Below, one piece after another: positions 7,218 to 53,249 of a stretch of 64,000 nucleotides of DNA. This DNA is from Cyclobacteriaceae bacterium (GTDB lineage Bacteria > Bacteroidota > Bacteroidia > Cytophagales > Cyclobacteriaceae). The position numbers and the translations under genes are program-made. The notes under the pieces were generated by a model. It searched no databases. It was not told where the DNA came from and saw nothing but the letters and a program-made list of their open reading frames with translations. Where the stretch lies: NCBI GenBank assembly GCA_015488485.1, contig WFNR01000099.1, positions 1 through 64,000 of the forward strand, read 5' to 3'. Positions within the stretch are counted from its first letter, which is position 1, and each line of letters opens with the position of its first letter.

Positions 7218-7338
7218 TTAAACCCGCTTTATTCATGATAGATTTATAAGGAGTGAAAATATGATCTTTTTAATATCAGATTATCAGGGATTTATAATAG
7301 GGTTAATCCTGAATATTCAGGTGAATTTTCCGGGTTAA
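7218..7338 (+). repeat. Dispersed repeat copy 1 (121 bp) in the uvrA leader
   Basis: The first 38 bases, beginning TTAAACCCGCTTTATTC, match the reverse complement of 52914-52951 with three mismatches. The last ~25 bases, ending GTGAATTTTCCGGGTTAA, match the reverse complement of 52803-52827 with one gap and a few mismatches. The two ends are themselves imperfect inverted repeats (TTAAACCCG against CCGGGTTAA). Inside are a 14-bp palindrome CCTGAATATTCAGG at 7308-7321 and a 25-codon reading frame. The shared ends with different middles suggest a small mobile or amplified element family. Confidence 0.7.
7261..7338 (+). other. Possible 25-codon leader ORF within the repeat
   Basis: An ATG at 7261 follows AAGGAG with an 8-base gap, a good Shine-Dalgarno-like site for a phylum that rarely uses one. 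The frame encodes a mostly hydrophobic 25-residue peptide (MIFLISDYQGFIIG at its start) and stops exactly at the TTAA end of the repeat. It lies 12 bases before the uvrA TTG start. Whether it is translated, or regulates uvrA, is unknown. Confidence 0.3.
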
Positions 7339-10565: not shown

Positions 10566-11606
10566 ATGAACAAGCAGCGCCTATACTGGCTTTTACAGAT
10601 ATCCGGCTGGACCATTTATGCCGGTATCAATGTACTGGGGGTCAGTGCACAGTCGTCACATTTTACCCCGGTCATGGCCGTACCGGTAGTGGCAGAAGCT
10701 TTTTTCTTCTTTTTGATTACCCATTACTATCGTCATTTGGGGAAGAAAAAAGGCTGGCTCTATCAGTCCACCAACCGCCTGGTGCCAAAAGTGCTGGTGA
10801 GTATTTTCTTCATGGCAGTGCTGGTTTACATGCTCAGGGTGGGCGTATCGGTTGTGCTACACCTGTACAGCCCGGAGATGCTGCATTGGGTAAACCTGCT
10901 GGGCAACATCACCGCCAATATTATTGTGTTGGTTATCTGGTCGTCTATCTATTTTGCCTTTCACTATTTTGAAAAAAACACCCAGTCGCTCAAGTACGAG
11001 GTGGCAATGAATGAGATGAAGCTCAACCAGCTAAAATCGCAGGTAAATCCGCACTTTATCTTCAACGCCCTGAATAGCATACGTGCCCTGGTGGATGAAG
11101 AGCCGGCCAAAGCAAAAAAGGCCATCAACAACCTGTCCAATATCTTGCGCTCTTCACTGGTGATGGATAAAAAGAAACTGACCTCGCTTAAAGAAGAGCT
11201 GGCTACCACCCGCGATTATCTGGCGCTGGAGTCAATTCGCTTTGAAGAGCGCCTGCAAACCGAATTTGATATTCAGCCCGGCACTGAAAATGTACAAGTG
11301 CCGCCCATGATGGTGCAAACTCTGGTAGAAAATGGTATTAAACATGGTATTTCGCGCCTCAAGGAAGGCGGCAAGGTTTCGGTAAAAGCGCGTTTGAATA
11401 ACCATGCTATGTTGCTGGAAATACGTAATAGCGGTCAATACAACCAGCATGGCAGCCTCAATGGTACCGGCCAGGGCCTGCGCAACACGCGCCAGCGTCT
11501 GCAATTAATTTTTGGCAAGGCTGCCAGACTGGAAATACAAAATGAAAATGAACACACCGTACTTACCACAGTGCGGGTGCCTTTATATGAAAACGGAAAA
11601 TTATAA
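10566..11606 (+). CDS. LytS/YehU-type sensor histidine kinase
   Basis: A 346-residue membrane kinase with four N-terminal helices (about residues 8-135), then a short linker and the His_kinase family region. The phosphoacceptor is in QVNPHFIFNALNS near residue 165. The ATP-binding part has LVENGIKHG near 255 and a GTGQGLRNTRQRL glycine loop near 305. No extracellular sensor domain is visible, so the signal is probably sensed in the membrane. The response regulator follows 3 bases later, so the pair is clearly an operon. Confidence 0.92.
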   Translation: MNKQRLYWLLQISGWTIYAGINVLGVSAQSSHFTPVMAVPVVAEAFFFFLITHYYRHLGKKKGWLYQSTNRLVPKVLVSIFFMAVLVYMLRVGVSVVLHLYSPEMLHWVNLLGNITANIIVLVIWSSIYFAFHYFEKNTQSLKYEVAMNEMKLNQLKSQVNPHFIFNALNSIRALVDEEPAKAKKAINNLSNILRSSLVMDKKKLTSLKEELATTRDYLALESIRFEERLQTEFDIQPGTENVQVPPMMVQTLVENGIKHGISRLKEGGKVSVKARLNNHAMLLEIRNSGQYNQHGSLNGTGQGLRNTRQRLQLIFGKAARLEIQNENEHTVLTTVRVPLYENGKL

Positions 11607-11609
11607 GAG

Positions 11610-12323
11610 ATGAGAGCTTTAGTAATCGATGACGAACGACTGGCACGTAAAGAACTGCTGAAATTGCTGGAAGATTACCCCGAAATAGAAGTGATAGGTG
11701 AGGCCGCCAATGCCGAAGAAGCCTATGAGAAGATTAATGAGCTAAAACCGGATTTGCTCTTCCTGGATATCCAGATGCCGGGCAAAACAGGCTTTGAATT
11801 GCTGGAAATGCTTGATGCCGTTCCCAAGGTAATCTTTACCACTGCTTATGATGAGTATGCCCTCAAAGCATTTGATGTAAACGCCCTCGATTATCTGCTG
11901 AAGCCGGTGCAAATGGACAGGCTTAATGAAACAATAGCCAAGCTGCAGCCTCCGGCACCGAAAGAGGAAACAGAGAAAGAGCCTAAACTGGGTCTGAACG
12001 ATCAGGTGTTTGTCAAGGATGGCGACAAATGCTGGTTTGTGAAACTGGCCGATATCCGCTATTTCGAATCGGACGGCAACTATATCAAGGTGTTCTTCGA
12101 TAACGTACGGCCGATGATTCATAAATCGCTAAATGCGCTGGACGAAAAACTGAACGACCGTGATTTCTTCCGCGCCAGTCGCAAGCATATCATCAACCTA
12201 AGCTGGGTAGAAACTATCGAGCCGTGGTTTAATGGTGGACTGATGGTAAAACTGCGTGGCGGTGATAAGGTGGAAGTATCGCGCAGGCAGGCAGCCAAGT
12301 TTAAGGAGAAGATGAGCCTCTAA
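11610..12323 (+). CDS. LytR/AlgR-type response regulator (REC-LytTR)
   Basis: A 237-residue regulator. The receiver domain (1-115) has the acidic pair DDE near residues 8-10, the phospho-accepting Asp in LLFLDIQMPG near 52, the Thr/Ser in FTTAYDEYALKAF and the Lys in LLKPV. The C-terminal LytTR DNA-binding domain (about 135-237) contains FESDGNYIKVFFDN and FFRASRKHIINLSWV. It is the partner of the kinase immediately upstream. The gene stop (12321-12323) overlaps the end of a relic of a minus-strand gene. Confidence 0.94.
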   Translation: MRALVIDDERLARKELLKLLEDYPEIEVIGEAANAEEAYEKINELKPDLLFLDIQMPGKTGFELLEMLDAVPKVIFTTAYDEYALKAFDVNALDYLLKPVQMDRLNETIAKLQPPAPKEETEKEPKLGLNDQVFVKDGDKCWFVKLADIRYFESDGNYIKVFFDNVRPMIHKSLNALDEKLNDRDFFRASRKHIINLSWVETIEPWFNGGLMVKLRGGDKVEVSRRQAAKFKEKMSL

Positions 12324-12378
12324 CGCGGCTGCACCATGCTCACCAGCTCGCGATCCACTTCCCAGTCTTTGGCTATTT
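12320..12378 (-). pseudogene. 3' remnant duplicating the end of the 12733-13101 gene
   Basis: Read on the minus strand, this encodes the last ~18 residues (IAKDWEVDRELVSMVQPR and a stop) of the intact protein at 12733-13101. The peptide is identical. The DNA differs at several positions, all of which look synonymous (for example GCGCGGCTGC against GTGGCTGT). Similarity stops abruptly at about 12378, where the hairpin-rich repeat block begins. No start or upstream part remains. Confidence 0.75.
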
Positions 12379-12680
12379 CCCGTTTTCAGTGATGTCGTGC
12401 CCCGAATAAACGGGAAGGGGGCTTGAAATTAACTTATTGCTCTATGGCGTAGAGCATAAAGAGGGCCTTGCAGGAAAGGCGCCATTAAAGGTCGGGCGAT
12501 TGTTTAGATGAATGTTAATGAAATCCACTTGTTTGAGTGCCGCAGTGCCTGCGGCACGAGTTTGGATTTCGTTCATGGTCGTAGAGCCCGGACGGTCGCC
12601 TTTGCTGCACAGCCTTGATTTTTTTGCCTGCCTAGCCGGCAGGCAGGATTCTTTTTGTATCAAGACAAAAAGAAAAATGT
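12377..12680. repeat. Hairpin-rich repeat block
   Basis: About 300 non-coding bases containing a run of inverted repeats. These are TTCCCGTTT/AAACGGGAA (12377-12385, 12408-12416), GCTCTA/TAGAGC (12439-12455), GTGCCGCAG/CTGCGGCAC with loop TGC (12537-12557) inside a wider GAAATCCA/TGGATTTC pair (12520-12570), TGCCTGCC/GGCAGGCA (12625-12645), and TTCTTTTTGT/ACAAAAAGAA (12649-12674). The layout resembles compound REP/BIME-like repeats. It sits exactly between the truncated gene end and the intact gene. Confidence 0.65.
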
Positions 12681-12732
12681 AAAAAGGGATAGAAAAAGAT
12701 AAAGTTGAAATCCCGAAAACGATCGATGTTTT

Positions 12733-13101
12733 TTATCGTGGCTGTACCATACTTACCAGCTCACGATCCACTTCCCAGTCTTTGGCTATTTTGAGAATAG
12801 CGGCAGCCTCCATTTCGGTAATGTAGCCTTTTTCGCGATTGGCCAGCCAGGTGAGGTTGAGAAACTGCACACGCTTGCTTTTGCTGAGTTTTTTTATTGC
12901 CTGGTTCAGGTATTCGCGCGCCCGCTCAAAAGCGGTGATATAGTCGCGTGCTATGAAATCGAAAGCCCATTTTAATTCCTTCTCAGCATCCAGCTCGGCA
13001 GCCGACCGGTACAGGATTTTTTCTTCTTCTTCTACCAGACCATGGTAGTGAAAAATTATTGCTTTTAACAGCATCAATATTTTCTTTTCCTCGTTTAACA
13101 C
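12733..13101 (-). CDS. Small helical cytoplasmic protein, unknown function
   Basis: A 122-residue protein, predicted almost entirely alpha-helical, rich in Glu and Lys, without signal peptide or membrane segment. It begins MLNEEKKILMLLKAII. An all-helical TerB-like fold is conceivable, but I see no defining metal-binding residues. Its 3' end is duplicated at 12320-12378 with only synonymous changes, which shows the protein sequence has been under selection. The 140 bases upstream (13102-13240) are AT-rich and contain nothing I recognise. Confidence 0.7.
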   Translation of the reverse strand: MLNEEKKILMLLKAIIFHYHGLVEEEEKILYRSAAELDAEKELKWAFDFIARDYITAFERAREYLNQAIKKLSKSKRVQFLNLTWLANREKGYITEMEAAAILKIAKDWEVDRELVSMVQPR

Positions 13102-13240
13102 CGGTGCGGCTCTTCAAGTGATAAATTTAGCCCAAATTATCAGCAAATAAAGTTCAAAATTTAAAATTGTAGCTGTGGGCAGTCAAATTTTAATATAATC
13201 TGGCCGCCTATGGTAACCTAACAATAATAAATAGGATATC

Positions 13241-13990
13241 TCAACCGTCCTGCAAGGCATAAACCACCGGCCGGCTGGGAGCGGCATCCAGGGCGATGGC
13301 CGGTACTTGCAGGTTAAGCAAATAAAGTCCGTCCGCCAGCTGGTTGTCTATATAAGCCAATTCGGTAATGGTAGCCCCCTGGCGCAGGTGTCCTGCCGTT
13401 TGCCAAAAAGCCTTGTGTGCCGCCAGCTTGCCGCCATCCACTTCTTTATCCACAGAAGGCAGGTCGCAGACCAGGTGGTCGATGCTCCGCTCTGCCAGCA
13501 GTTGCAGTGCGGCTGCTGTGAAATAGGGCGGGTTAGTACCCGAGTAGTTTTTACTTAATTTATCTGCTGTATTGGGCCGGGTACGTACCAGCAAGGCTTC
13601 TATACCTTCAATAAGCTTTTCGGATAGTTGGTTGTGCTCTATCACTTTATCCGGGCCGTTGTCTATGGGTGTCACGGTGAGCAGTTGGGCTACAAACCAA
13701 AACCTGGTTAAGCATTGGTCAATGGTGGCCCCACCGGCTGTAATGTGGCCGTAGCATTCGGTATGCGTGGTGTTGCCATGCGGGCTTAAAGAGAGCAGGT
13801 AGTGGTTTACCGCGGCACCGGCTTCGATACTGCCAATAAAATCACCGTTCTCAATGGGCGTCATGGTGGCCAAAGGGCTGTGATAACAGTTTGGGTCGGC
13901 CTGTCCGCCCCGCAGCGGAATGGCCAGGCTATGCGGCTGGGCGAGGTCGGCTGTATAGGCTTTGCCTTGCCAGGATAGGGTGATTTTCAT
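13241..13990 (-). CDS. Cyclase-family (kynurenine formamidase-like) hydrolase
   Basis: A 249-residue protein of the metal-dependent cyclase/arylformamidase family. The family metal-binding motif appears as HGNTTHTECYGHI near residue 72, a variant of HGTHxDxPxH. A later conserved stretch reads HLVCDLPSVDKEVDGG near 172. These enzymes hydrolyse formyl-kynurenine or related amides, but the substrate cannot be told from sequence. The start overlaps the hemW stop (ATGA), so the two are translationally coupled. Confidence 0.85.
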   Translation of the reverse strand: MKITLSWQGKAYTADLAQPHSLAIPLRGGQADPNCYHSPLATMTPIENGDFIGSIEAGAAVNHYLLSLSPHGNTTHTECYGHITAGGATIDQCLTRFWFVAQLLTVTPIDNGPDKVIEHNQLSEKLIEGIEALLVRTRPNTADKLSKNYSGTNPPYFTAAALQLLAERSIDHLVCDLPSVDKEVDGGKLAAHKAFWQTAGHLRQGATITELAYIDNQLADGLYLLNLQVPAIALDAAPSRPVVYALQDG

Positions 13991-15117
13991 AAGTTGTCAT
14001 CCATCAGTTCCACAATTATTGAGTCGGCCAGCAGCCAGCCGCCTTCGGTAAGCACAAATTTATCGTTTTCTCGTTTTGCCAGTCCTTGTTCTATACAGTG
14101 TTTTAGAAAAGAACCATGCTTATCTTCCGTGTCAAGCCCGAACTTATCCCTGATCAGATGCAAGTCTATACCCCTGTCGGTGCGCAGGCCGGTAAGCAGG
14201 TATTCATAATACTGCTGTGCTTTGTTCAGATGTTCGGTAGTGGCCGGCACAAGGCCCCGGCTGAGCTGCCGGATGTAAATAGCATTGTTGGCGATATTGG
14301 CCTGGCGGCTGCTGCCATTGTACGAATGTGCCCCGGGGCCTGCGCCCAGGTAGGGCGCCCCATGCCAATAGGCCTGGTTGTGCCGGCTACGGTACCCCGG
14401 CCGGGCGAAGTTCGATACCTCATAATGCTCAAATCCTGCCTGACCCAGTATGTCGCACATAAGGCGGTACTCCGCCTCGTAGGTGGCTTCGCTTACCGCC
14501 TTGAGCCTGCCCTGACGTTGCCAATGCCCCCAGGCGGTGCGCTCCTCTATGGTCAGGGCGTAGCACGACAGGTGCTGTATGGGCAGTGCCAGCGCCTGCT
14601 CCAGGTTGCGCTGCCACTGGCGGGTGGTTTGGCCGGGGATGCCATAAATCAGATCGATAGAAATGTTGTCGAAGCCCGCTGCGGCCAGCAGATGTACGGC
14701 TTCGATGGCCTGGCGGCCGCTATGGGCACGGTTGAGCAAGGGCAACACGCGGTCGTCAAACGACTGCACCCCCAGACTGATGCGGTTGAACCCCAGCCTG
14801 CGCCACATGGCTGCCCGTTCTGCACTTACATCTTCTGGATTGACCTCCAGGGTGATTTCTGCTTCAGCATCCACTGCAAAAAGCGCACGGATTTTGGCCA
14901 GCAGCAGGGCCAGTTGCTTATCGGCCAGCAAGCTGGGGGTGCCACCTCCCAGATAGATAGTAGCCACTGGCTCTTGCAGATAAGATTGTCGCAATGCCAG
15001 CTCCTGCGTTAGGGCTTGCACCAATTCGGGCAGGCTCTTCAGGGTAGTGCTGAAATGAAAATTGCAATAATGACATGCCTGCCGGCAATAAGGTATGTGC
15101 AGATATATTCCCCCCAA
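13987..15117 (-). CDS. hemW: Radical SAM heme chaperone HemW
   Basis: About 376 residues. The radical SAM cluster motif is CRQACHYC near residue 10, with the preceding YLHIPYC and later IYLGGGTPSLL, RISLGVQSFDD and IDLIYGIPGQT typical of HemW (formerly annotated as coproporphyrinogen III oxidase-like). A C-terminal HemW domain follows. The TTG at 15117, giving M-GGIYLHIPYC, is preferred. An ATG at 15156 would overlap the start and promoter of the divergent gene. The second Cys spacing (CxxxCxxC) is intact. Confidence 0.93.
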   Translation of the reverse strand: MGGIYLHIPYCRQACHYCNFHFSTTLKSLPELVQALTQELALRQSYLQEPVATIYLGGGTPSLLADKQLALLLAKIRALFAVDAEAEITLEVNPEDVSAERAAMWRRLGFNRISLGVQSFDDRVLPLLNRAHSGRQAIEAVHLLAAAGFDNISIDLIYGIPGQTTRQWQRNLEQALALPIQHLSCYALTIEERTAWGHWQRQGRLKAVSEATYEAEYRLMCDILGQAGFEHYEVSNFARPGYRSRHNQAYWHGAPYLGAGPGAHSYNGSSRQANIANNAIYIRQLSRGLVPATTEHLNKAQQYYEYLLTGLRTDRGIDLHLIRDKFGLDTEDKHGSFLKHCIEQGLAKRENDKFVLTEGGWLLADSIIVELMDDNL

Positions 15118-52806: not shown

Positions 52807-52951
52807 TCCGGAAATTCACTTGAATTTTCCGCCTTTCAGGCCAAAGAATGCCAAAATCGATGTGTTTGACGATTTTCCCATATTTTCATCAGATGACAAT
52901 TTTGGGATAAATCCATTCCTTATGAATCTATCATGAATAAAGCGGGTTAAA
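52803..52951 (-). repeat. Dispersed repeat copy 2 (149 bp) after scpA
   Basis: On the minus strand its first 38 bases match the start of the 7218-7338 repeat (35 of 38), and its last ~24 bases match that repeat's end. Both have TTAA-CCCG-type inverted termini. The middle is longer by about 28 bases, and an internal stretch is shared (TGAAAATATG). Like copy 1 it has a short frame after AAGGA, here 26 codons. The scpA stop codon forms part of the right end. Confidence 0.7.
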
Positions 52952-53220
52952 CCGTCAATTGTCATTAGATTGTCTAATGACAATTGATGAATTGAAAATC
53001 AATGAGTTATGCAACTAATTGTATTATCCAAAAAGGATTTTCAATTGTCACGGTTAACCTCCTACGAGTCAGACACGACTGTAGGAGTCGTCTGACCTGA
53101 CAAGTTATTGTTTTCCAATAACTTCGTCAGCTCATGGCGATACTGCCAGAGCATGACAAGCTTCGCTTCGTCATGCCCGAAGGGCAAAATTGTCAATTCT
53201 ATTGACAATTTTGGGATAAA
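52894..53220. repeat. 18-bp direct repeat flanking the hairpin block
   Basis: TGACAATTTTGGGATAAA occurs at 52894-52911 and again at 53203-53220. The first copy lies inside the dispersed repeat. The second is one arm of the last hairpin plus its flank. Confidence 0.7.
52955..53213. repeat. Series of perfect inverted repeats (hairpin block)
   Basis: Five inverted repeats in 260 bases. They are TCAATTGTCATTAGA with its complement, loop TTG (52955-52987, 15 bp perfect); AATTGAAAATC/GATTTTCAATT (52990-53000, 53036-53046); AAGTTATTG/CAATAACTT (53102-53124); GCATGAC/GTCATGC (53151-53176); and CAAAATTGTCAAT/ATTGACAATTTTG (53185-53213, 13 bp perfect). A further imperfect pair around GTCAGAC/GTCTGAC lies at 53065-53095. 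There is no coding frame. It may be a nested repeat element or structured RNA. Confidence 0.65.
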
Positions 53221-53249
53221 AAAAGCTGCCCCTGGACCGAAGCAGCTTT
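53218..53249 (-). terminator. Rho-independent terminator of ndk
   Basis: AAAGCTGC (53222-53229) pairs with GCAGCTTT (53242-53249). On the minus strand it is followed by a U run from the A tract at 53218-53224. It lies 24 bases after the ndk stop. Confidence 0.8.

Follow-up and report, generated by a model that had tools for sequence, protein, structure and literature searches.

A spare gene end and a structured repeat at a tight convergent junction in a Cyclobacteriaceae draft genome

The lytR/small-gene junction and its spare gene end

The DNA analyzed here (the window) is a 64,000-nucleotide stretch of a Cyclobacteriaceae genome, termed G000 below and available as a draft of 182 contigs. 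The following features surround the junction of interest.

10566-11606, plus strand: sensor histidine kinase gene (His_kinase; Pfam PF06580, E 2.3e-25)
11610-12323, plus strand: lytR-type response regulator (Response_reg and LytTR; Pfam PF00072 and PF04397), with a stop codon overlapping that of the spare end
12320-12378, minus strand: spare copy of the small-gene end, 19 codons with the stop counted, from the repeat match; probably the native lytR-adjacent tail, as 2 of 2 polarisable differences are derived in the other copy
12379-12732, no strand: added block of about 354 bp that separates the two gene ends and is lacking in the same-genus genome G001
12461-12676, plus strand: structured dispersed repeat with a long imperfect hairpin, a T tract, a terminal hairpin, and a likely pseudoknot (217.6 bits with covariance model R1, this copy itself being among the three used to build the model)
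12628-12648, no strand: extra 21-nt palindrome within the repeat, missing from the other two G000 copies in alignments
12733-12791, minus strand: functional copy of the small-gene tail, from the repeat comparison
12733-13101, minus strand: small gene of 122 amino acids, convergent with lytR and conserved in relatives

An initial annotation of this DNA had claimed that the end of the small gene occurs a second time at 12320-12378, and this second occurrence is real. A repeat search pairs 12321-12378 with 12734-12791 as a direct repeat of 58 nt, 90% identical at a spacing of 413, and with 78.8 bits this ranks first in the window among direct repeats spaced under 2.5 kb (runner-up, 38.3 bits). 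The extent given there, about 18 codons, is better stated as 19 codons including the stop, with the second copy at 12733-12791. Read on the minus strand, both tails give the same 18 residues, IAKDWEVDRELVSMVQPR, and a stop. They differ at 7 of 57 positions, all of them third positions and all synonymous, just as had been described; position 12320 is one of the seven and makes the difference between TAG and TAA as stop.

The differences are not spread evenly. All seven lie within the last 11 codons, stop counted (P of 0.009 for confinement to one end), on the side proximal to lytR, while the first 26 nt of the compared tails in gene sense are identical and belong to a 28-nt identical stretch (12351-12378 and 12764-12791). 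The spare copy begins directly on the end of lytR: the TAA that ends lytR (12321-12323) and the spare stop (CTA on the plus strand, 12320-12322) overlap.

Random changes in these tail codons would be expected to be synonymous in 21 to 27% of cases, compared with the 7 of 7 observed. If the copies had begun identical and the spare had drifted freely with the other constrained, this outcome would have a P of about 0.001-0.0025; under the same drift model, the location of 2 of 2 polarisable changes in the functional copy has a P of about 0.03-0.05. Both values come from few sites and from a test run after the pattern was seen. The synonymous-only pattern is thus improbable under free drift, and the view that it reflects divergence under selection holds numerically. 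Both tails were therefore probably still coding when they diverged, as would be the case for an allele derived from a related lineage. As a weaker step, the present small-gene tail itself was probably acquired from a diverged allele through recombination. Of the alleles or paralogues invoked earlier, the allele part, including recombination with the allele of another strain, is accordingly plausible from this P value while unproven, and the paralogue part is not borne out by the relatives.

The small gene has matches in 36 of the 59 genomes searched (window genome included), one per genome. A second match occurs only in G000, where it is the 19-residue tail, and a second full gene was found in none of the 59, so that a decayed paralogue was rejected as the source of the spare end. 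The gene belongs to no Pfam family at E 0.001, and its Pfam and NCBIfam matches are weak and below curated cut-offs. When small-gene loci of relatives were taken with 1.5 kb of flank, lytR was convergent with the small gene in 12 of 29 non-own loci (L006-L034), where lytR fell inside the fetched locus; in 10 of those 12, fewer than 60 nt separate the last aligned codons of the two genes. The direct convergence that the initial annotation had suggested looking for in close relatives is found in the same-genus genome G001 (locus L042), where 9 nt lie between the two stops and neither the block nor a duplicated end is present. The block of about 354 bp and the duplicated gene end were therefore gained here, and the repeat-block insertion proposed earlier is backed by this empty junction.

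The added block and two further copies of its repeat

Only part of the block, 12457-12675, has clear matches in G000, on contigs C134 and C106. The earlier account omits that the repeat has these two other copies and that they too have gene-end duplications from convergent neighbors on either side. All three copies lie on separate contigs, between convergent genes, with gene-end direct repeats of 58, 120, and 19 nt on either side. On C134, the neighbors of the repeat are a glyoxalase/VOC-type gene and rsgA, and the 120-nt flanking repeat (93%) spans their junction, from the VOC end across the spacer to the rsgA end. On C106, pfkA and miaA are the neighbors, and the 19-nt flanking repeat (89%), marginal taken alone at 25.6 bits, contains both gene ends. 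The corresponding G001 junctions are empty, with 3 nt between the stops of VOC and rsgA, and with pfkA and miaA overlapping by 12 nt in the same shape.

With a draft assembly and direct repeats that differ at a strain-like level, it could be argued that the assembly joined junction versions from two strains, as might happen in draft or metagenome data. This is highly improbable, as the same layout recurs around the same repeat on three separate contigs with direct repeats of different length.

The spare VOC end on C134 has 4 nonsynonymous changes among 8 differing codons and reads as ordinary decay, so the allele argument is confined to the window locus. Between the repeat core and the direct repeats lie stretches of 22 to 151 nt that are unshared among the three loci; searched against the rest of G000, against G001, and against G015, they gave no match at E 0.01 or better. 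The repeat is therefore not a unit with fixed ends, and transposition of a fixed-end element is disfavored for the same reason.

End duplications were also sought at other gene pairs, using simple open reading frame calls. A sample of 442,082 bases of G000 holds 59 convergent pairs among 353 gene pairs. Some end-duplication match was obtained for 5 of the 59, and scores of at least 25 bits, a threshold chosen after the scores were seen, only for the three with the repeat; the other two matches are short (21.1 bits each). None of 35 convergent pairs sampled from G001 gave a match. In other orientations, one pair in G000 (L183, 36.5 bits) and one in G001 (L200, 26.5 bits) exceed 25 bits, and such matches are therefore not impossible at other pairs.

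These counts bear on the order of events. A duplication might have come first, by local slippage, with the repeat settling later in a newly harmless spacer; redundant sequence between tight convergent genes would tolerate insertions, and the G001 junctions are nearly without spacer. Against this, the 56 repeat-free convergent pairs sampled in G000 show no end duplication at 25 bits or above. End duplications on their own thus appear rare, and this order of events is very unlikely.

Some further features of the block can be described. A duplication of the lytR end before 12733 looked promising by eye and was rejected, as 452 of 2000 shuffles were at least equal; in five more checks, for longer duplications running beyond the ends of the repeat, the corresponding counts were 107 to 1514 of 2000. 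A 73-codon open frame covers the structured repeat (12442-12663, minus strand) and similar frames cover the other two copies, probably as by-products of the repeat and not as genes. The palindrome at 12628-12648, present in the window copy only, interrupts the repeat directly before the terminal hairpin and has short matches in G015 (best E 6.1e-4) and weak ones in G000 and G001.

The repeat as a folded element and its distribution

Model R1 was built from the three G000 copies. In ten copies from four genera, 94.6% of alignment cells are paired across 53 pairs, compared with 39 to 48% in slid controls, and both sides have changed in 44 of the 53 pairs, although this alignment leans to the model because it was fitted to it; two reverse-strand self-matches were removed before the count under a stricter threshold. 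In an alignment made from sequence only, the terminal hairpin and closing helix reappear (13 of 21 pairs compensated) but the inner helices do not. Two copies outside the model fold alone to the same outline, one with a z score of -5.1 (0 of 200 shuffles as stable) and the other with -2.2 (5 of 200). The repeat is a covarying folded element.

The motif CTTGAT, 3' of the long hairpin, can pair with a loop ATCAAG in 59 of 60 cells over 10 sequences, with two compensated pairs and 11 of 500 shuffles equal, and this likely represents a pseudoknot. An automatic check of 63 loci found CTTGAT with the loop ATCAAG in 26 and no stem in 22; because several of its partner choices are unreliable (8 loci with only 4 pairs), the pseudoknot assignment is taken from the 10-sequence test alone.

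Like the bacterial structured RNA families collected in Rfam, the repeat has a fold that is conserved and covaries, yet five loci with the repeat have 0 matches in Rfam 15 at E up to 1. For 11000-14500 of the window, the single Rfam match is below its gathering score and outside the repeat. Among the results of literature searches, the titles and abstract openings name no such repeat.

Searches with model R1 returned, in G000, the three copies and a single weak match that lies on the reverse strand and overlaps the C134 copy; in G001, no copy; and in six other genomes of the family, 3 to 12 matches each at E up to 0.1. Matches, mostly to the 3' part of the repeat, occur in 25 of the 59 genomes (own included), and the repeat is present in several genera of the family. 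What this adds is a folded element that covaries strongly, lacks an Rfam match, and extends across those genera. Among the copies in other genomes, all gene contexts occur. With 8 of 63 loci untyped, 15 of 55 are convergent when the window genome's own three are counted and 12 of 52 when they are not.

Direct repeats accompany 19 of the 63 copies and 12 of 99 control positions, an excess inflated by tandem and other repeats, and the idea that the repeat generally has duplicated flanks was rejected. In a separate step, the borders were misplaced at five loci that contig ends truncate (L215, L220, L223, L224, and L230), and these rows were not used. Among the flanking repeats listed outside G000, none clearly extends over the predicted 3' end of a gene. 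There, a single copy, in G002, combines a convergent junction with a clean flanking repeat (35 nt, 88.6%), which abuts the gene end and does not cover it. Gene-end duplication thus stands at three sites in one draft genome.

In G037, from another family of the order, the 3' part of the repeat lies inside a larger unit of about 430 nt with eight copies (L067, L090-L093, and L100-L102), several of which have partial internal direct repeats. The flanking repeats recorded in G037 belong to this element itself.

Possible routes into a tight junction

In compact genomes, convergent genes are so tightly packed that insertions should break one of them. The three cases described here suggest a route by which a repeat may enter such junctions without loss, namely by duplication of one or both gene ends. 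We consider it fairly probable that the spare segment is what remained of the small-gene end after the repeat-bearing block of about 354 bp entered a tight tail-to-tail junction that was duplicated in the same event. A block carrying the dispersed, structured, noncoding repeat would have entered between lytR and the small gene, and the junction would have been duplicated with it, much as happens in a long target duplication or when an insertion occurs by a single crossover, which would leave both neighboring genes with complete ends. That duplication and insertion were one event is inferred. The diverged-allele tail would have arrived with the block by recombination, and the spare tail beside lytR would then be the old native one.

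The order of segments is native tail ending in 28 identical bases, block, diverged tail ending in 28 identical bases, and the rest of the gene, a topology that a long target duplication would produce and a single-crossover insertion would too. With flanks of 22 to 151 nt that differ per locus, we favor capture of the block together with flanking DNA, probably through recombination with a related strain.

One form of such capture would use a small circle from a related strain, or a linear fragment homologous at one end, that carries the block and the diverged tail and recombines by a single crossover in the 28-nt identical stretch. The native tail would be left beside lytR, as the observed order would have it, and the differences would be synonymous and confined to the lytR-proximal side, as they are. 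One-ended homologous capture is said to have been described in three naturally competent species (PMC3240628). Against this stand the ordinary decay of the C134 spare VOC end and the lack of any sighting of the donor strain or circle, and this route is possible though doubtful. In homology-facilitated illegitimate recombination, homology is reported to join one end, and the other end is joined without homology (PMC3240628); it can be inferred that a partial old copy could be left behind. In contrast, the tail peptide here is unchanged and the same repeat is found at three sites.

Another version of the joint event would be the insertion of a nonautonomous mobile element, moved by a transposase that makes long target duplications of variable length, with the tails drifting apart later. 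IS1634 and IS1549 offer a parallel, as their direct repeats are reported to be tens to hundreds of base pairs long (8 to 514 bp) and to differ in length by copy (PMC2266710). The block is likewise flanked by long direct repeats of varying length, with the same topology at three loci, and the G002 copy has its own flanking repeat at a convergent junction. Unlike IS1634 and IS1549, the block has no transposase gene and no common ends beyond the core, and its flanking copies have diverged. A search of G000 for the IS1634-family transposase (NF033559) gave three weak matches, none over the cut-off, and 7 of 7 synonymous differences are improbable for a freely drifting spare copy. Of the traits of a nonautonomous element of the IS1634 type, long direct repeats of variable length are present, whereas neither a transposase over the cut-off nor common ends abutting the direct repeats were found in G000, and the transposase-driven route is rather unlikely. 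The repeat also resembles REP and MITE-like repeats in being short, noncoding, hairpin forming, intergenic, and present in several copies per genome; unlike these, it has multiple helices with compensated changes, a likely pseudoknot, and gene-end duplications at all three G000 copies.

A more far-reaching speculation, which we regard as quite unlikely, is that the order has a structured RNA element, pseudoknotted and not yet catalogued, which is itself mobile and whose arrival duplicates the tail-to-tail junction over tens to more than 100 bases. Such an element could enter junctions that tolerate no ordinary insertion. If it spread, perhaps, through RNA or a small circle carrying flanking DNA, this would explain both the locus-specific flanks and the allele-like tail.

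Apart from this junction, an unrelated repeat region lies at 52860-53230 of the window. A 401-base stretch there has 82 matches in G000. The region looks like a palindromic element within another repeat family, with an exact 18-nt direct repeat as its borders (52894-52911 and 53203-53220), and its outer repeat partly recurs inverted at 7218-7255.
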